Assembly: GCF_027947535.2 (NCBI RefSeq)
Contig: NZ_JAAGKO020000015.1
Location: 62,001 to 126,000 of the forward strand
From: Streptantibioticus silvisoli
Lineage (GTDB): Bacteria > Actinomycetota > Actinomycetes > Streptomycetales > Streptomycetaceae
Direction of reading: 5' to 3'
Length of the DNA: 64,000 nucleotides
Shown: one piece after another, positions 51,659 through 63,756 of the stretch
How positions within the stretch are numbered: the first letter of the stretch is position 1
Layout: each line of letters opens with the position of its first letter
Program-made: the position numbers and the translations under genes
The notes under the pieces: generated by a model
What the model saw: the letters and a program-made list of their open reading frames with translations, nothing else
What the model was told of the DNA's origin: nothing
The model's database searches: none

Positions 51659-54787
<3,129 letters not shown>

Positions 54788-55075: not shown

Positions 55076-55291
55076 CGGGGAGCCGGCCGCTGGTTCCGCC
55101 GGATTACCGGGCCGGCGGCGCCGTAGGCCGAACGGCGGGAACCGGCGGCGCGGTACGGGTCGTTATCCGGGCATATCGGATTACCCGCCCGGCGGCTGGG
55201 CAGAACGCAGGGCAGACCCGCCCGCCGGGCGGTCCGCAGCGTGCCGCATCCGGACGCGGGCGGCAGCACACGAGGTGAAGGGGGCGCGGCC
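55076..55291. other. Divergent intergenic region ileS / DksA-like gene
   Basis: About 215 bases that should hold the promoter of the rightward DksA-like gene. No convincing element could be placed; GAGGTGAAGGGGG just before 55292 is the ribosome-binding region. Confidence 0.4.
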
Positions 55292-55849
55292 ATGGTGGCG
55301 AGGAAGAGCGCCGCGAAGTCCGCGCGGCCGCAGCAGGCGGCACCGGCGAAGAAGGCCGCCGCCGGGAAGCAGGGTTCCGGGACCGCCCGGAGCCGTACCG
55401 GGAGGGGACACACCGCGATGACCGCGAACGAGACGGCGCCCCCGGCGCGCGAGCCCGCCGGGCTGCCGGTGCGGCCGGGGGAGGAGCCCTGGACCGCCGC
55501 GGAGGCCGGTGAGGCCCGCGCCCAGCTCGACGACGACGCCGCCCGGCTGCGCGAGGAGATCCGGCTGTCGGAGGCGGCCGTCTCCGGCCTGATGCGCGAC
55601 TCCGGCGACGGGGCCGGCGACGACCAGGCGGACGTCGGCACCAAGAACATCTCCCGCGAGCACGAGATGTCCCTGGCCGACAACGCCCGCGAGATGCTGA
55701 TCCAGACCGAGCACGCCCTGGAACGCCTCGACAACGGCACCTACGGCCGCTGCGAGTCCTGCGGCAACCCGATCGGCAAGGCCCGCGTGCTGGCCTTCCC
55801 CCGGGCCACCCTCTGCGTCGAGTGCAAACAGCGCACCGAACGGCGCTGA
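55292..55849 (+). CDS. TraR/DksA-family zinc-finger protein
   Basis: This 185-aa protein has a Lys/Ala-rich basic N-terminus (MVARKSAAKSARPQQAAPAK), a helical hairpin (ARAQLDDDAARLREEIRLSE ... DNAREMLIQTEHALERLDNG) and a C-terminal zinc finger CESCGN...CVEC (YGRCESCGNPIGKARVLAFPRATLCVECKQRTERR in two parts). DksA/TraR proteins bind RNA polymerase in the secondary channel; in actinobacteria the exact role is less clear. The basic N-terminus is unusual for DksA and may bind nucleic acid. ATG at 55292 follows AAGGGGG. Confidence 0.92.
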   Translation: MVARKSAAKSARPQQAAPAKKAAAGKQGSGTARSRTGRGHTAMTANETAPPAREPAGLPVRPGEEPWTAAEAGEARAQLDDDAARLREEIRLSEAAVSGLMRDSGDGAGDDQADVGTKNISREHEMSLADNAREMLIQTEHALERLDNGTYGRCESCGNPIGKARVLAFPRATLCVECKQRTERR

Positions 55850-55934: not shown

Positions 55935-56669
55935 GTGACGAAGGCGGAGCGCACCATCGGTACGCCAGGGTTCGAACCGGCCGCCGGTGAGCCGGCGGAC
56001 GGACAGCACAGCGACGGCCGCCGGCCGGACGGCGACCGGCCGGCCCCGCCGGCCGCCGGTGAGCCGGCCGCGGACGCGGTGCCCCCCGTGGGCGCGGCGG
56101 ACGGCCCGGACCCGGTGGACCCCGGCGCGGACCCCGACGGCGAGCCCGGCACCGGCGGCGACGCCGGGGCGGCTCCCGGGCGTGGCAAGCGGCGGATGCC
56201 GGCGCTGCTCGGCGTCGCGGCGCTGGCGTACCTGCTCGACATCGTCAGCAAGACCCTGGTGGTGCACCACCTGGAGGGGCGCCCGGCCATCCCGGTCCTC
56301 GGCTCCTACCTCCAGCTGTGGGCCACCCGCAACTCCGGCGCCGCCTTCGGCATCGGCCAGGGCATGACCATCGTCTTCTCCGTGATCGCGCTCATCGTGA
56401 TCGGCGTCATCGCCCGGCTGTCGCGCAAGCTCTACAGCGTGCCGTGGGCGATCGCGCTGGGCCTGCTGCTCGGCGGGGCGCTGGGCAACCTCACCGACCG
56501 GATCTTCCGCTCACCGGGCGTCTTCCGCGGCGCGGTCGTCGACTTCATCGCCCCGAAGGACTTCGCCGTCTTCAACCTCGCCGACTCCGCGATCGTCTGC
56601 GGCGGCGTCCTCATCGTGTGGCTGTCCTTCCGCGGCCTGGACCCGGACGGCACCCTCCACCGGGACTGA
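55935..56669 (+). CDS. lspA: Lipoprotein signal peptidase LspA with long N-terminal extension
   Basis: LspA removes the signal peptide of prolipoproteins at the membrane. The membrane core (about residues 88-235) shows [56 protein letters not shown] and [16 protein letters not shown], with the catalytic aspartates in LTDR and LADS. The first 85 residues are Pro/Ala/Gly/Asp-rich with PAAGEPA repeats and have no counterpart in ordinary LspA (about 160-170 aa). GTG at 55935 is the annotated start; a start nearer the core (for example at the Met before PALLGV) is possible but lacks a ribosome-binding site. Confidence 0.95.
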
Positions 56670-56720: not shown

Positions 56721-57662
56721 GTGAGTACCCTTCCCGAGATCCGAACGCTTCCGGTGCCCGACGGCCTTGAGGGCGAGCGGGTGGACGCAGCGCTGGCCCG
56801 CATGTTCGGCTTCTCCCGTACCAAGGCGGCCGAACTCGCCGCCGACGGCAAGGTGCGGGTGGACGGCTCCGCGGCCGGCAAGTCCGACCGCGTCAGCGGC
56901 GGCGCCTGGCTGGAGGTGGAGATGCCCGCCCCGGCCGCGCCGGTGCGGATCGTCGCCGAACCGGTCGAGGGCATGGAGATCGTGCACGACGACGACGACG
57001 TGGTGGTCGTCGCCAAGCCGGTCGGCGTCGCCGCGCACCCGTCGCCCGGCTGGAGCGGCCCCACCGTCATCGGCGGCCTCGCGGCGGCCGGCTTCCGCAT
57101 CTCCACCTCCGGCGCCGCCGAACGCCAGGGCATCGTGCACCGGCTGGACGTCGGCACCTCGGGGCTGATGGTGGTCGCCAAGTCCGAGCGGGCCTACACC
57201 CTGCTCAAGCAGCAGTTCCGCGAGCGCACGGTCGACAAGCGCTACCACTCGCTGGTCCAGGGCCACCCCGACCCGCTCAGCGGCACCATCGACGCGCCCA
57301 TCGGCCGCCACCCCACCCACGACTACAAGTGGGCGGTCGTCGCCGAGGGCAAGCCCAGCGTGACGCACTACGACCTGATCGAGGCGTTCCGCGCCGCCAG
57401 CCTGCTCGACATCAAGCTGGAGACCGGCCGCACCCACCAGATCCGGGTGCACATGTCGGCGCACCGCCACCCGTGCGTCGGCGACCTGACCTACGGCGCC
57501 GACCCGACGCTCGCCAAGCGCCTCGGCCTGACCCGGCAGTGGCTGCACGCCGTCCGGCTGGGCTTCGAGCACCCCGGGCACGGCGGCTGGGCGGAGTTCT
57601 CCAGCCCCTACCCCGACGACCTGGCCGCCGCGCTGGAGACCGTCCGCGAGGAGAGCGCGTGA
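56721..57662 (+). CDS. RluD-type 23S rRNA pseudouridine synthase
   Basis: This 313-aa RluA-family enzyme has an N-terminal S4 domain ([35 protein letters not shown]) and a catalytic domain with [31 protein letters not shown] (catalytic aspartate in HRLD) and [19 protein letters not shown]. It probably makes pseudouridines in helix 69 of 23S rRNA, like RluD; the exact target is inferred. GTG at 56721 follows CATACT by seven bases, so the transcript may be leaderless. It follows lspA as in many bacteria. Confidence 0.94.
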
Positions 57663-57698: not shown

Positions 57699-58277
57699 GT
57701 GGCCGCCGCTGAGACCGTCGTGCTGTTCCACTCCGCCTACGGGCCGCGCGCCGCGGTCCACGAGGCGGCGGCCCGGCTGCGCGCCGAGGGCCACGAGGTG
57801 CTGGTGCCCGACCTGTTCGACGGGCGCACCACCGACGACCTCGACGAGGGCCTGGCGATCCGCGACGAGCTGGGCACCGGGGAACTGCTGCGCCGCGCCG
57901 TGGCGTTCGTCGCCCCGCACTCCGCCCGCGGCCTGGTCTACGCCGGCTTCTCGCTGGGCGGCGCCATCGCGCAGAACCTCGCGCTGGGCGACGAGCACGC
58001 CCGGGGCCTGCTGCTCCTGCACGGCACGTCGGACCTGGCCGACGACGCGGCCACCGACATCGCGGTGCAGCTGCACGTCGCCGAACCGGACCCGTACGAG
58101 ACCGACGACTGGCTGACCGCGTGGTACCTGCGGATGGGCCGCGCCGGGGCCGATGTCGAGGTGCACCGCTACCGCGGCGCGGGCCACCTGTACACCGACC
58201 CCGGCCTGCCCGACTGGGACGCGGAGGCCGCCGACCGCACCTGGGCGGTGGCCTCCGCGTTCCTGGCGGAGCTGTAG
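57699..58277 (+). CDS. Dienelactone hydrolase-like alpha/beta hydrolase
   Basis: This 192-aa alpha/beta hydrolase begins VVLFHSAYGPRAAVHEAAARL and has VLVPDLFDGRTTDDLDEGL, a nucleophile elbow YAGFSLGGAIAQNLAL, LLLLHGTSDL and a histidine in YRGAGHLYTDPGLPDWD. True dienelactone hydrolases use cysteine at the elbow; a serine is present here, so it is a family member with unknown substrate. GTG at 57699 follows GGAAGG and lies 36 bases after the pseudouridine synthase stop, suggesting co-transcription. It converges on the DsbA-like gene with only seven bases between stops. Confidence 0.9.
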   Translation: MAAAETVVLFHSAYGPRAAVHEAAARLRAEGHEVLVPDLFDGRTTDDLDEGLAIRDELGTGELLRRAVAFVAPHSARGLVYAGFSLGGAIAQNLALGDEHARGLLLLHGTSDLADDAATDIAVQLHVAEPDPYETDDWLTAWYLRMGRAGADVEVHRYRGAGHLYTDPGLPDWDAEAADRTWAVASAFLAEL

Positions 58278-58284
58278 CGCGGCG

Positions 58285-59091
58285 TTACTTGCCGATCGCC
58301 TTGTCCAGCGCCGGGGTGAACTGCGCCAGCGGGATGACGCCCTCGGGCGGGTTGTTGAAGCCGGTCACCGCGAACTTCTTGCCGTCCACCATGGCGGTCG
58401 GCGTGCCCTGCACACCGCTGCTGGTGAACGACGCCGACATCTTCGACGCCCAGCTGTCGTACTTGCCGTCCTTGACGTTCTTCTGGAAGGCCGCGTTGTC
58501 CTTCAGCGCCGGCACCTCGTTGGAGATCTTGAACAGGTAGCTGTCGTCCTTGAACTTGTCGGTCTGCTCGTCGGGGTGGTTGGCCTTGGAGTACAGCGCG
58601 GTGTGGAACTCGATGAACGCCTTCGGGCTCACGTCGAGCGCCGCGCCCAGCGCGCTGAGCGCGTTCATCGAGCCGCTGCCGCCGAGGTTGCCGTCGAGGA
58701 AGGTGCCGAAGGTGTACTGGATCTTGTAGTCGCCGGCGTCCGCGCCCTTGACGATCTGCGCGCCGTCGGTCTGCTCGAAGGACGCGCAGATCGGGCAGCG
58801 CGGGTCTTCGTACAGGTGCAGGGTGTGCTTGGCGGAGGCGCTGCCGTAGATGACGGTGGTGCCGTTGGTGCCCGAGGCGTTCGCCGGGACCACCAGCGGC
58901 TTGCTCGGTCCCTTGTGCGTCGCCTTGGTGACGCCGATGGCTATGCCGGCCACGACTCCGATGACCACGACGACGCCGACCACGGCGAAGATCTGCCGCC
59001 GTGCCTTGGCCCGCTTGGCCTCCTTCTCCCGCTCGGCCTTGAGCCGGTCGCGGGCGGACGATTTCTGGTCCCAGGCGTTCCTGCTGCTCAT
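58285..59091 (-). CDS. DsbA-family thioredoxin-fold membrane protein
   Basis: This 268-aa protein has a basic N-terminus (SARDRLKAEREKEAKRAKAR), one membrane helix (IFAVVGVVVVIGVVAGIAIGV, about 34-54) and an extracytoplasmic thioredoxin fold with the CPIC active site (LYEDPRCPICASFEQ) and the cis-proline region GVQGTPTAMVDGKKF. It probably acts in disulfide exchange of exported proteins. It resembles the DsbA-like DSBA_4/thioredoxin_4 family of actinobacteria. ATG at 59091 is preceded by GGAAACC. The next gene upstream on the same strand encodes a membrane protein, but it lacks the VKOR pattern expected of a disulfide-generating partner. Confidence 0.94.
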   Translation of the reverse strand: MSSRNAWDQKSSARDRLKAEREKEAKRAKARRQIFAVVGVVVVIGVVAGIAIGVTKATHKGPSKPLVVPANASGTNGTTVIYGSASAKHTLHLYEDPRCPICASFEQTDGAQIVKGADAGDYKIQYTFGTFLDGNLGGSGSMNALSALGAALDVSPKAFIEFHTALYSKANHPDEQTDKFKDDSYLFKISNEVPALKDNAAFQKNVKDGKYDSWASKMSASFTSSGVQGTPTAMVDGKKFAVTGFNNPPEGVIPLAQFTPALDKAIGK

Positions 59092-59158
59092 GATGGTTTC
59101 CGCTCTCCGTGACGTGGTGGTGTGCTGACGACCGGGTACCGGCCCGCCCCGCCAGGGG

Positions 59159-59818
59159 TCAGGCCGCCACCGGCCGCGGCGGACCACGGCGTACCAGGCA
59201 GTGCGCGACGGTGAGCGACGGTGGCCGGCGTGGGCCGGCGGCTCCGGCCGGCGTCACCCGGGGCTGCGGCTCGGTGAACCGGCCGTACAGCACCGCGGCG
59301 GCGCGGGCCAGCGGGCGGAACGCGAAACTGGCCGCCGCCCGCAGCGACTGCTGGACGGCCGTCTCGCCGCGCCGCAGCCACCACGACGCCAGCAGCCCGA
59401 TCGCCAGGTGCGCGCTCAGCAGCGCCCACGGCAGCGCCGGGTGGACGGCCGCCTGCACGGGGTCGCCGGGCAGCAGCGTGCCGACCCGGCCGCCGCCGCA
59501 GATGACGTCCACACCGAACGACCGCAGCGGGCCGGTCACCGGGCCGCCGCCGGGGCCGTAGCAGGTGCGCTGGCCGCTGGTGAACAGGGTGTCCGCCGCC
59601 AGTTCCAGCGGCACCATCAGCGCCGCGATCGCCCACAGGCTCCGCTCACGGCGGCCGGTGGCGAAGGCGATCAGGAACATCGCGGTGAAGACCACGCCGA
59701 CCAGCGGCAGCGGCAGCGGAGTGCGCGACAGCAGCACGTGGGAGGTCGTGGACAGCGTGGCGCACAGCGCGGCGAACAGCGCGGCCCGCGCGGCCCTGAG
59801 CTGACGACTCCCCTCCAT
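59159..59818 (-). CDS. Integral membrane protein of unknown function
   Basis: This 219-aa protein has four to five predicted membrane helices (ALFAALCATLSTTSHVLL, LPLVGVVFTAMFLIAFATG, SLWAIAALMVPLELAADTLF, PWALLSAHLAIGLLASWWL) and a central loop with two cysteines (QRTCYGPGGG and DVICGGGRVG). The C-terminal 60 residues are Arg/Pro-rich. I do not recognise a family with certainty. The ATG at 59818 fits a leaderless start after CACACT; a GTG six codons upstream (59836) is the alternative. It is followed on the same strand by the DsbA-like gene after 67 bases, and the two cysteines could make it a redox partner, which is only a guess. Confidence 0.78.
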   Translation of the reverse strand: MEGSRQLRAARAALFAALCATLSTTSHVLLSRTPLPLPLVGVVFTAMFLIAFATGRRERSLWAIAALMVPLELAADTLFTSGQRTCYGPGGGPVTGPLRSFGVDVICGGGRVGTLLPGDPVQAAVHPALPWALLSAHLAIGLLASWWLRRGETAVQQSLRAAASFAFRPLARAAAVLYGRFTEPQPRVTPAGAAGPRRPPSLTVAHCLVRRGPPRPVAA

Positions 59819-59836
59819 GAGGCCGAAGTGTGCCAC

Positions 59837-60038
59837 GCCGGGCCGTCAAAGGGGCCTAAAGGTCCGGCACCGTTCGCCGCGACCCGCGTTTTCCGGCCGC
59901 GAAACCGCTGGTCGAGGCGGTGCCGACGGCGTGCGCAGGACCGTTGTCGGTGACCCTCCCTACACTTCTCACGTCAGGACAAAACGGACTGGCGGCGCCG
60001 GGGGCCGGTGCGGCCGGACGCGGAAACGGAGGTGACCG
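59837..60038 (+). promoter_or_regulatory. Promoter region of the dnaE gene
   Basis: TACACT at about 59959-59964 is the best -10 element, about 75 bases before the start. Immediately before the GTG lies GGAGGTGACC, a near-perfect ribosome-binding site. Confidence 0.55.
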
Positions 60039-63000
60039 GTGACGACCCCGCCCTTCGCCCACCTGCACGTCCACACCCCGTACTCGCTGCTGGACGGCGC
60101 CTGCCGAACGGCCGACCTGCTGCGGGTGTGCCGGGAGACCGGCATGACCCACCTGGGCATGACCGACCACGGCAACCTGGCCGGCGCCCCCGGCTTCCAC
60201 CGGCAGGCCCTCGAAGCCGGCGTCACCCCGGTCATCGGCATGGAGGCCTACGTCGCCCCCGGCCCCCGTGCCGACCGCACCCGGGTCCACTGGGGCACCC
60301 CCGACCGGCGCCGCGACGACGTGTCCGGCGGCGGGGCCTACACCCACGTCACGCTGTGGGCCACCGACGCCACCGGGCTGCGCCACCTGACCCGGCTGTC
60401 CGGCGACGCCTACCGCACCGGCCGGCTGGCGGGCCGCCCGCGCACCGACCGCGAGTCGCTGGCCGCGCTGTCCGGCGGCCTGGCCGCCTCCACCGGCTGC
60501 CCGTCCGGCGAGGTCCAGACCCGGCTGCGCCTGGGCCAGTTCGACGCCGCCCTGGCCGCCGCCACCACCTACCGCGACATCTTCGGCGCCGACCGCTACT
60601 TCCTGGAGCTGATGGACCACGGCCTGGAGATCGAACGGCGGGTGCGTGAGGACCTGCTGGAGATCGGCCGCAGACTCCGCATCCCGCCGCTGGTCACCAA
60701 CGACGCCCACTACACCTACCCGCGCCAGGCGGCCGCCCACGACGTGCTGCTGTGCGTGCGCACCGGCTCCACCCTCGCCGACCCCGACCGGTTCGCCTTC
60801 CGCGGCACCGGCTACCACCTGCGCACCCCGCGGGAGATGTACGCCCTGGACTCCTCCGACGCCTGGCAGCGCGGCTGCGCCAACACCGTGCTGCTGGCCG
60901 AACGCGTCGACCCGGCCGGCTGGTTCGCCCCCCGCGACCTGCGCCCGCACCCCGCGCTGCCGGCCGGCCGCGACGAGGCCGGTGAGCTGCGCGCCGCCGT
61001 CGCCCGCGGCCTGGCCCGCCGCTACCCCGGCGGTGTGCCGCGGGACCGGCGGGCCCGCGCCGCCCACGAGACCGGTGTGATCATCTCCACCGGGTTCGCC
61101 GGCTACTTCCTGGTCGTGGCCGAGATCGTCGCCTGGGCCCGCTCCCGGGGCATCGCCGTCGGCCCCGGCCGCGGCTCCGCGCCGGCCAGCCTGGTCGCCC
61201 ACCTGCTCGGCATCACCGGGTTCGACCCGGTCGACCACGGCCTGGTCTTCGAACGCTTCCTCAACCCCGAACGCGGCACCGCGCCCGACATCGACATCGA
61301 CCTCGACGAACGCCGCCGCCCCGAGGTCGTCGCGCACGTCACCGCCCGGTACGGCGCCGACCACGTCGCGCTCGTCGGCACCCACCCCACCGTCAAGGCC
61401 CGCAACGCGGTCCGCGACGCCGCCCGGGTCCTCGGCCGGCCCTACGCGCTCGGCGACCGCGTCGCCAAGGCGCTGCCCGCCGCCCCGGCCGGCGTCCCGC
61501 TCGCCGCCGTCCTGGAGCCGGACCACCCCCGGCACCGGGAGACCGCGGTGCTGCGCGCGATGTACGACGCCGACCCGCGGGTCCGCGAGATCCTGGAGAC
61601 CGCGAGCGGCATCGAGGGCCTGGTCCGGCACAACGGCGTGCACCCGGCGGGCGTGGTCGTCGCCGGTGAACCGCTGGCCGACCACGTCGCGCTGTGGACC
61701 CGCCCCGGCGAGCAGACCCCCGTCACCCAGTGGGACCACACCGCCTGCGAGGCGCTCGGCCTGCTGAAGATCGACCTGCTCGGCCTGCGCAACCTCACCG
61801 TGCTGTCCGACGCCGCCCGGCTGGTGGAGGCGGCCGGCCGCACCGCGCCCGCCCCCTTCGCCCTGCCGCCGGACGACGCCGCGACCTGGTCGCTGCTGGG
61901 CCGCGGCGAGACGCTGGGCGTCTTCCAGTTCGACGGCGGCCCGGTCCGCGCCCTGCTGCGGATGATCCGCCCCGACCGCCTCGCCGACCTGTGCGCCGCC
62001 ACCGCCTTGTACCGCCCCGGTCCGATGGGCGCCGACGCCCACCTCGCCTACGCCCGGCGCAAGCACGGCGAGGAACCGGTCACCGCGATCCACCCCGAGG
62101 TCGACCGGGCGCTGCGGCCGGTGCTGGCCGACACCTACGGCCTCATCGTCTACCAGGAGCAGGTCCAGCGCGTCGCCCAGGTCGTCGCCGGCCACCCCCT
62201 CGGCCGCGCCGACCTGCTGCGCCGCGCCCTGAGCGGCGGACCGGCCGCCGCGCTCGACGCCGAGTACGGCCCGTTCCGCGACGGCGCCCGGCGCAACGGC
62301 TACGGCGACGAGGCGATCCACGCGGTCTGGCAGACCCTGGTGGCGTTCGCCGGGTACGCCTTCAACAAGGCGCACGCGGTCGCCTACGGCCTGATCGGGT
62401 ACGCCACCGCCTACTACAAGGCCCACCACCCGGCCGCCTTCATGGCCGCGCTGCTCACCTCGGTCCGCGACGACCGCGCCCGCGCCGCGCTCTACCTGAG
62501 CGAGGCCCGCCGCATGGGCCTGACCGTCCTGCCGCCCGACATCAACGCCTCCGGCGCCGGCTTCACCGCGCCCGACGCGACGACCCTGCGCTTGGGCCTG
62601 TCCGCCGTGCGCAACGTCGGCCGGGACGCGGTCGACTCCGTGCTGGCCACCCGCGAACGGCACGGCCGGTACGCCTCGTTCCCCGACTTCCTCACCGCCT
62701 GCGGGACTGCCGTCCGCCACCGCCGGGTCGTCGACTCCCTGATCCGCGCCGGCGCCTTCGACTCCCTGGGGTACACCCGCAAGGGGCTCGCCGACCGGGC
62801 CGGTCCGTTGCTGGCCGGTGTCGTGGCAGCCGAACAGCGGGAGGCGGCAGGGCAGTTCGGCCTCTTCGCACTGCCCGCGGCGCCGTCGGGCGGCCCGCCC
62901 GGCGCCCCCGCCTTCGACGACCGCGAATGGGAACCGGCCCACCGCCTCGCCCAGGAACGCGAGATGCTCGGCCTCCACGTCGGCGACCACCCGCTGCGCC

Positions 63001-63554
63001 GGGTCGCCGACCGGCTGGCGGAGCACACTGACACCACGCTGGCCGCCCTGACCGCCGACGACCTGCCGGACGGCACCGCGCTCACCGCCGGCGGACTGCT
63101 CACCGGCATACGCCCGCGCACCACCCGCCGCGGCGACCCGTACGCCGAGGCCACGCTGGAGGACCTCACCGGCAGCGTCACCTGCGTCGTACTGCCCGCC
63201 GCCTACCGGCAGGCCGGCGCCGCGCTGGCCGAGGACGCCGTCGTGCTGGTCACCGGACGGCTCGAACACCGCGACGGCACCCCGCGGTTGGTGGCCGGCG
63301 AGGTCACGGTCCCCGACCTGGCCGGACCCGCCGCGCCGGCCGGCCCGCCGGTCACCGTCGACGTCCCGGCCGCCCGGCTGACCGCACCGCTGGTACGCCG
63401 GCTCGGCCGGGTGCTGGCCGGCCACCGCGGCGGCACCGAGGTCCGGGTCCGGGTGCGCGACGACCACGGCACCACGGTGCTGCGGCTGGACCGCGACCAC
63501 CGGGTCACCGCCGACCCGGCCCTGTACGCCGACCTCGACGCGCTGCTGGGCTGA
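60039..63554 (+). CDS. dnaE: DNA polymerase III alpha subunit (DnaE1-like, divergent)
   Basis: This 1171-aa C-family polymerase starts with a PHP domain (FAHLHVHTPYSLLDG, GMTDHGNLAGA, LELMDHGLEIE, VTNDAHYTY), followed by GVIISTGFAGYFLVVAEIVAWA, PGRGSAPASLVAHLLGIT, catalytic aspartates D417/D419 in PDIDIDLDERRRP, and D579 in GLLKIDLLGLRNLTVLSD. It continues TLGVFQFDGGPVRALL, LYRPGPMG, YGLIVYQEQVQRVAQVVAG, FAGYAFNKAHAVAYGLI, an HhH region and an OB domain near GLLTGIRPRTTRRGDPYAEA. Length and domain order match replicative DnaE1. However, the MGKKKP motif expected near 732 reads LSGGP. It sits at the usual streptomycete dnaE place downstream of ileS/lspA. A second, canonical dnaE elsewhere cannot be excluded. 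Confidence 0.93.
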   Translation: MTTPPFAHLHVHTPYSLLDGACRTADLLRVCRETGMTHLGMTDHGNLAGAPGFHRQALEAGVTPVIGMEAYVAPGPRADRTRVHWGTPDRRRDDVSGGGAYTHVTLWATDATGLRHLTRLSGDAYRTGRLAGRPRTDRESLAALSGGLAASTGCPSGEVQTRLRLGQFDAALAAATTYRDIFGADRYFLELMDHGLEIERRVREDLLEIGRRLRIPPLVTNDAHYTYPRQAAAHDVLLCVRTGSTLADPDRFAFRGTGYHLRTPREMYALDSSDAWQRGCANTVLLAERVDPAGWFAPRDLRPHPALPAGRDEAGELRAAVARGLARRYPGGVPRDRRARAAHETGVIISTGFAGYFLVVAEIVAWARSRGIAVGPGRGSAPASLVAHLLGITGFDPVDHGLVFERFLNPERGTAPDIDIDLDERRRPEVVAHVTARYGADHVALVGTHPTVKARNAVRDAARVLGRPYALGDRVAKALPAAPAGVPLAAVLEPDHPRHRETAVLRAMYDADPRVREILETASGIEGLVRHNGVHPAGVVVAGEPLADHVALWTRPGEQTPVTQWDHTACEALGLLKIDLLGLRNLTVLSDAARLVEAAGRTAPAPFALPPDDAATWSLLGRGETLGVFQFDGGPVRALLRMIRPDRLADLCAATALYRPGPMGADAHLAYARRKHGEEPVTAIHPEVDRALRPVLADTYGLIVYQEQVQRVAQVVAGHPLGRADLLRRALSGGPAAALDAEYGPFRDGARRNGYGDEAIHAVWQTLVAFAGYAFNKAHAVAYGLIGYATAYYKAHHPAAFMAALLTSVRDDRARAALYLSEARRMGLTVLPPDINASGAGFTAPDATTLRLGLSAVRNVGRDAVDSVLATRERHGRYASFPDFLTACGTAVRHRRVVDSLIRAGAFDSLGYTRKGLADRAGPLLAGVVAAEQREAAGQFGLFALPAAPSGGPPGAPAFDDREWEPAHRLAQEREMLGLHVGDHPLRRVADRLAEHTDTTLAALTADDLPDGTALTAGGLLTGIRPRTTRRGDPYAEATLEDLTGSVTCVVLPAAYRQAGAALAEDAVVLVTGRLEHRDGTPRLVAGEVTVPDLAGPAAPAGPPVTVDVPAARLTAPLVRRLGRVLAGHRGGTEVRVRVRDDHGTTVLRLDRDHRVTADPALYADLDALLG

Positions 63555-63577
63555 GCCGCACCCGGAGCGCACGCACC

Positions 63578-63612
63578 GCAGGGCGCGCCCGCGAGGGAAC
63601 GCGCCCTGCTGC
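63578..63612 (+). terminator. Terminator hairpin after dnaE
   Basis: GCAGGGCGCG (63578-63587) pairs with CGCGCCCTGC (63600-63609), loop of 12. No T-run follows, as common in this GC-rich DNA. Confidence 0.65.
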
Positions 63613-63756
63613 ACCGCCCGGTCAACGCCCCGGCCGGCGGCCCGCCTTGACGGTCCGCTGCCGCTCCGGGGGCGGCGGTGCGCGCCGGGTCGGGGGTGAC
63701 GGTCCGCGTCCGGTCGCGCGGGGGTCCGTCCGGCCCGAACGGCCGCGCCCGGGGGA

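Follow-up and report, generated by a model that had tools for sequence, protein, structure and literature searches.

Few bacterial proteins are as conserved as the replicative polymerases, and swaps of them are rarely seen. At the dnaE locus of Streptantibioticus silvisoli (GCF_027947535.2), the encoded polymerase lacks the lysine-rich MGKKK stretch of replicative DnaE proteins, and the initial annotation left two readings side by side: either replication in this lineage relies on an altered polymerase, or what sits at the dnaE locus is a specialised paralogue. We addressed this question in a window of 64,000 nucleotides, the whole stretch of DNA analysed (contig NZ_JAAGKO020000015.1, positions 62,001 to 126,000), and in the remainder of this genome and of its family; S. 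silvisoli is the one genome sampled for its genus.

A DnaE1 with intact active sites at the ancestral locus

The gene, hereafter diverged dnaE (Table 1), encodes a DNA polymerase III alpha subunit, matching NCBIfam NF004226 over residues 2-1170 with 1170.7 bits (cut-off 1002). Pfam recognised PHP, Pol3 alpha, finger, HHH_6, and OB domains, and Pfam and NCBIfam together gave the domain order of DnaE1 (PHP, Pol3, HhH, OB, C-terminal). The best solved relative in both sequence and fold is Mycobacterium tuberculosis DnaE1 (PDB 7PU7, 5LEW), with which diverged DnaE aligns up to residue 1171, indicating a full-length protein that includes the C-terminal domain. AlphaFold2 predicts the usual fold of Pol III alpha (mean pLDDT 79, pTM 0.63), and the top structural match of the model is again M. 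tuberculosis DnaE1, with other Pol III alpha structures also matching. The active sites had been described as intact, and we found all of their residues present: D417, D419, and D579 in the polymerase site and the nine PHP metal ligands (H10, H12, D19, H44, E69, H103, C154, D222, and H224) of a proofreading centre of the M. tuberculosis type. This nine-residue metal site is intact in DnaE1 outside the alpha-, beta-, and gamma-Proteobacteria (PMC3919608). The Q939, L942, and F943 columns of the clamp motif are invariant in alignment A1.

Table 1. Features of the dnaE region; positions are counted from the first nucleotide of the window.
Feature	Position	Strand	Remarks
ileS-type ORF	51659..54787	-	Conserved locus; named from length, locus, and conservation
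DksA/TraR-type protein	55241..55849	+	Syntenic
lspA, signal peptidase II	55935..56669	+	Syntenic
rluD-type pseudouridine synthase	56721..57662	+	Syntenic
Dienelactone hydrolase-family protein	57699..58277	+	Syntenic
DsbA/thioredoxin-like protein	58285..59187	-	Syntenic
Conserved 225-aa protein	59159..59836	-	Adjoins dnaE in the family; no Pfam match
1252-aa antisense ORF	59856..63614	-	Spans the whole of dnaE; most likely a high-GC by-product
dnaE (diverged DnaE)	60039..63554	+	1171 aa, starting with GTG; strongly diverged native DnaE1 (A-type) in the canonical dnaE1 position
PHP domain, residues 8-194	60060..60620	+	Pfam; D222 and H224 lie just past this stretch
Catalytic D417 and D419	61287..61295	+	Present in diverged DnaE
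K577 and catalytic D579	61767..61775	+	Present in diverged DnaE
Residues 728-744, RRALSGGPAAALDAEYG	62220..62270	+	RR pair (728-729) kept; DNA and translation
LSGGP replacing MGKKK, residues 731-735 (L731, S732, G733, G734, P735)	62229..62243	+	Alignment
QFGLF, residues 939-943	62853..62867	+	QxxLF-type sliding-clamp motif; sequence match

Synteny comparison placed diverged dnaE in the standard dnaE1 neighbourhood of the family, that is, at the ancestral locus, with housekeeping genes upstream and an ABC transporter as the nearest recognised genes downstream. Mutasome genes (ImuA/ImuB, Y-family) were not among these neighbours. Likewise, no LexA-type box (GAAC-N4-GTTC, one mismatch allowed) was found between 55378 and 64000, and we rejected SOS regulation of the gene through a site nearby. 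The assembly is an 8.7-Mb draft in 130 contigs with an estimated contamination of 2.9%, which would leave room for a sequencing, assembly, or contamination artefact. We regard such an artefact as hardly credible, given that the frame is open throughout without a stop codon, GC at the three codon positions is of coding type (0.79/0.55/0.97), and the changes extend across the whole protein in a consistent mutation pattern. Contamination in particular is rejected by the neighbouring ileS-type gene, which is family-like, occurs as a single full-length copy in the genome, and is 87% identical to that of the nearest relative.

Loss of a basic loop in the fingers

Residues 728-744 read RRALSGGPAAALDAEYG, with LSGGP at the motif, and the reported loss of the lysines is real. 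The stretch is not one residue shorter, as had been stated, since it aligns free of gaps with actinobacterial DnaE1 and with M. tuberculosis DnaE1 (PDB 7PU7; RRALSGGPAAALDAEYGPF / RRAMGKKKREVLDAEYVPF), the latter having RKAMGKKK where diverged DnaE has RRALSGGP. Nor would a sequencing correction restore the motif: the underlying DNA, ctg agc ggc gga ccg, contains no AAG run in any frame, and with the frame open, a frameshift or sequencing slip is rejected. The strong conservation attributed to the motif held in our comparison, with MGKKK present in 167 of 170 C-family polymerase copies; the three exceptions were diverged DnaE, its nearest relative (L018, MGKKD), and the DnaE2 of the same genome. 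Among the sequences compared, no relative had the same substitution in a sole DnaE1. RRxMGKKK is a near-universal trait of the DnaE1 compared rather than a published defining criterion, and no paper mentioning the motif was found in the open-licence literature. At the same position, DnaE2 proteins of the family (L003, L244, L245, L247) have RRALS, and the lysine loop looks like a hallmark of DnaE1 rather than of the C family as a whole.

In the AlphaFold2 model, LSGGP forms a short loop joining two predicted fingers helices (residues 721-731 and 736-752). The preceding RR pair, which we take from Taq and PolC structures to sit in the fingers near the phosphates of the incoming nucleotide, presumably contacts that nucleotide. 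Judging from C-family structures in general, the MGKKK loop probably adds positive charge at this place, and diverged DnaE would grip nucleotide or DNA more weakly, a minor defect for an accessory enzyme and a serious one for a replicase.

The loss is also unusual within the protein itself. Diverged DnaE is changed at 47 of 269 near-invariant columns, and the five columns of MGKKK are the longest run of adjacent changes among them; shuffling the changed columns produced such a run 47 times in 20,000. It is also non-conservative (K to G, G, and P), while the commonest lysine change elsewhere is K to R (22 of 46). This five-column change stands out from the background of GC pressure described below and is not due to chance. 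Such clustering could signal a new selected function, for example gap synthesis at low dNTP, patching of linear-chromosome ends, or tolerance of a DnaE inhibitor, for which losing MGKKK would have been adaptive; the RRALS of family DnaE2 suggests that an accessory polymerase can work in this state, and in Nocardia, a dnaE homologue located next to the nargenicin cluster has been proposed as a self-resistance decoy (PMC8922275). We consider a new selected function improbable. No orthologue of comparable similarity or with the same motif was found in 394 other family genomes, the next best reaching 63% over the segment, hence there is no sign of a conserved function. The equivalents of three nargenicin contacts (Q630, R659, and H779, corresponding to Q638, R667, and H787 of M. 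tuberculosis) are unchanged, on which grounds a target change of the nargenicin type was rejected, and neither the absence of a LexA-type box nor the downstream ABC transporter speaks for a dedicated role. NarR/NgnU of that cluster resembles diverged DnaE as an extra DnaE in an actinomycete and differs in adjoining its cluster (cited in PMC8922275), whereas the S. silvisoli locus is a housekeeping one, with no biosynthetic cluster for a DnaE inhibitor among the nearest genes on both sides.

Vertical ancestry and accelerated divergence

Diverged DnaE fell inside the clade of native Streptomycetaceae DnaE1 (A-type) in every tree, with support of 98-100 and also after Dayhoff-6 recoding. AU tests rejected both joining it to the B-type lineage introduced below (p-AU 2e-6) and placing it outside A (p-AU 5e-4). 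Its exact position within A is uncertain because of its long branch and odd composition. The tree pairs it with L018 (support 99), and the pair survives Dayhoff-6 recoding; nearly all of the 11 states uniquely common to the two are expected from the same mutation pressure, and by neighbouring proteins the genome carrying L018 (G012) is not the nearest relative of S. silvisoli. L018 (also L146; G012:C1:4777736-4781077) is itself a canonical-locus DnaE1 of another genus that is drifting (MGKKD, Lys 3.1%), in a genome with a second, normal A-type copy elsewhere (L147), and it is possible that G012 represents an earlier stage of the process seen in S. silvisoli. A separate observation concerns G083 (C1:2075981-2076802 and surroundings), where the segment search gave only a shortened DnaE1 frame of 933 aa, possibly due to an assembly break or frameshift.

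With canonical-locus A-type DnaE1 such as those of S. noursei (L070) and S. coeruleorubidus (L108), diverged DnaE shares the locus, domain order, PHP centre, catalytic residues, RR pair, and clamp motif. It differs from them in LSGGP, in its 47 near-invariant changes, in a lysine content of 0.6% (about 5% in typical relatives), and in identity, which is 54-61% to members of the A clade that are 72-99% identical among themselves (median 89). By contrast, the ileS-type protein encoded nearby reaches 87% with its nearest relative. Its end branch measures 1.2-2.0 changes per site, compared with about 0.005-0.25 for the rest of the clade; it is longer than that of the sister sequence by a factor of about 15, and no sole DnaE1 in the set has one like it. 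In a leave-one-out control, the other sequences had a median of 0 changed near-invariant columns and a maximum of 14. The reported enrichment in Arg and Ala was borne out as well (11.1% and 15.9%, vs. about 6% and 9% in typical relatives), and over 958 conserved positions the protein had a net gain of 118 G/A/R/P and a net loss of 128 F/Y/M/I/N/K. These changes follow GC-rich mutation pressure.

How much selection still acts on such a protein is a matter of two sets of observations. The first would suit early decay, in which the gene, superseded by a B-type DnaE1 and under little selection, remains open for lack of time or through some non-catalytic use. Besides the shift in composition, states unseen in relatives occur equally often in invariant (17%) and in variable columns (18%), which suggests weak constraint and possibly recent decay, and the canonical copy of G012 is drifting likewise in the presence of a second A-type copy. 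The second set argues against decay. When a relative's gene was left to drift neutrally until protein identity had fallen equally far (about 1.3 changes per site), at least 6 in-frame stops arose, with a mean of 12, where diverged dnaE has neither stop nor frameshift. Agreement with the consensus is 82% at near-invariant columns (222 of 269 kept) and 49% at variable ones, and alongside the PHP ligands and catalytic residues, six of 15 invariant lysines are kept (K453, K477, K577, K675, K777, and K794), nine being lost. We read the constraint on diverged DnaE as weakened but real, and early decay as an unlikely alternative.

A second DnaE1 and the fate of the native copy

A search of the genome for a second dnaE, which the initial annotation had proposed, recovered three DnaE genes in all. 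Next to diverged dnaE there is a second DnaE1 on contig C120 (L002), which is of B-type, 47% identical to diverged DnaE, with RRAMGKKK intact and 7 of 270 near-invariant columns changed. The third is a DnaE2 (L003) beside a Y-family polymerase gene: its ORF (L144:6867-10925, minus strand) abuts or overlaps a frame of 730 aa (L144:5545-7734, minus strand) that contains a Y-family polymerase domain. In its layout, this arrangement resembles the module of DnaE2B, inactive PolY, and RecA described in Streptomyces (PMC12926913). Diverged DnaE is like DnaE2/ImuC (L003) in being lysine-poor and Arg/Ala-rich and in having RRALS at the same site. It differs in that L003 is only 37% identical, belongs to another clade, has broken PHP ligands, and neighbours a Y-family polymerase; DnaE2 also lacks the C-terminal domain (PMC3919608). 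A DnaE2 at the dnaE1 locus was rejected by the tree, in which diverged DnaE lies away from L003, by the domains, and by the intact PHP site.

The B-type lineage is widespread. We tallied DnaE1 types in 150 sampled family genomes among the matches listed, and in these approximate counts the 149 genomes other than S. silvisoli comprised 85 with A only, 41 with B only, 22 with both, and one unresolved, genomes with B only having single DnaE1-like matches. B-type copies (among them L151, L152, L154, and L257) are 69-80% identical to L002 and have the ordinary MGKKK, and they are about 46-48% identical to diverged DnaE. They occur on many Streptomyces plasmids, with 55 plasmid records matching at 60-80% identity, such as on pSVL1, a linear plasmid of S. 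vietnamensis, which makes the plasmid-borne form a second DnaE1 within the same bacterial family. Most of the loci examined have A-type in the canonical position. In three genomes, belonging to genera g2 and g3, this position is taken by a B-type copy (L151, L152, L154) that runs in the opposite orientation to A, as if B had replaced A. The 22 sampled genomes with both types had no comparable loss of identity in A (an approximate count, among the matches listed), and therefore acquisition of B alone is insufficient for A to diverge.

These findings bear directly on the reading that S. silvisoli replicates with an altered polymerase. Diverged DnaE does occupy the canonical dnaE1 locus and keeps the domain set and active sites of DnaE1, but the intact L002 is the better candidate for the replicase, being a conventional DnaE1 of the type that is the only one recovered in 41 of 149 genomes (approximate, among the matches listed), and the long end branch of diverged DnaE resembles that of no sole DnaE1 in the set. 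We consider this reading very improbable, and diverged DnaE as the sole replicase is rejected. The rival proposal of a specialised paralogue is largely supported, in that a conventional DnaE1 and a DnaE2 accompany diverged DnaE, which sits at the ancestral locus; specialisation for a newly selected function seems improbable.

On balance, we think it probable that B-type L002 became the replicase and that the native, diverged copy has been kept as an accessory polymerase. Diverged DnaE would then be a native, vertically inherited Streptomycetaceae DnaE1 that kept its ancestral locus and lost the main replicase role, while L002, from a plasmid-associated lineage and with every feature of a working replicase, most likely replicates the chromosome. 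Presumably because it was freed from this role, the native copy evolved at roughly ten or more times the rate of its relatives. Its changes are those of GC-rich mutation pressure, with K to R, I to V/L, and a net gain of G/A/R/P, and the basic MGKKK loop after the RR pair was lost during this acceleration. Most of the changes can be put down to selection having relaxed after the replacement. The native copy does not seem to have been abandoned, with an open frame and with the PHP ligands, polymerase aspartates, K577, RR728-729, and clamp motif in place; it is most likely still active and proofreading-capable, and may serve in occasional gap or repair synthesis as an accessory enzyme of the DnaEX type. 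Family DnaE2 proteins have RRALS, and therefore a neutral loop seems compatible with a non-replicative polymerase.

Genomes with two DnaE1 have been recorded before, and strongly diverged extra copies have been named DnaEX (Timinskas et al., 2013; PMC3919608). Diverged DnaE fits this description, being strongly diverged, additional to an ordinary DnaE1 and a DnaE2, and too diverged to resemble a primary replicase. It differs from DnaEX, and is new with respect to the open-licence literature, outside which an earlier description is possible, in that divergence has affected the native gene, in its original place, while the conventional copy comes from a plasmid-associated lineage. The accessible part of a 2026 survey of bacterial polymerases describes no plasmid-type DnaE1 replacement (PMC12926913). 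A bolder interpretation, which we regard as speculative, is that the displaced native polymerase was retained and remodelled into an accessory C-family polymerase of a new type, its fingers loop free of lysine and its proofreading centre intact, and that a plasmid-derived replicase displaced the native one in several Streptomycetaceae genera.

For annotation, these results advise caution, in that a gene at the canonical dnaE locus should not be called the replicase without checking the whole genome. They also draw attention to the plasmid-associated DnaE1 lineage, besides which no other DnaE1 was recovered in roughly one in four of the sampled family genomes (among the matches listed). Finally, the S. 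silvisoli locus, where the native gene has stayed in place, looks like a snapshot taken after a swap, and may serve as a natural experiment on which residues remain necessary to a C-family polymerase that has ceased to be the replicase.
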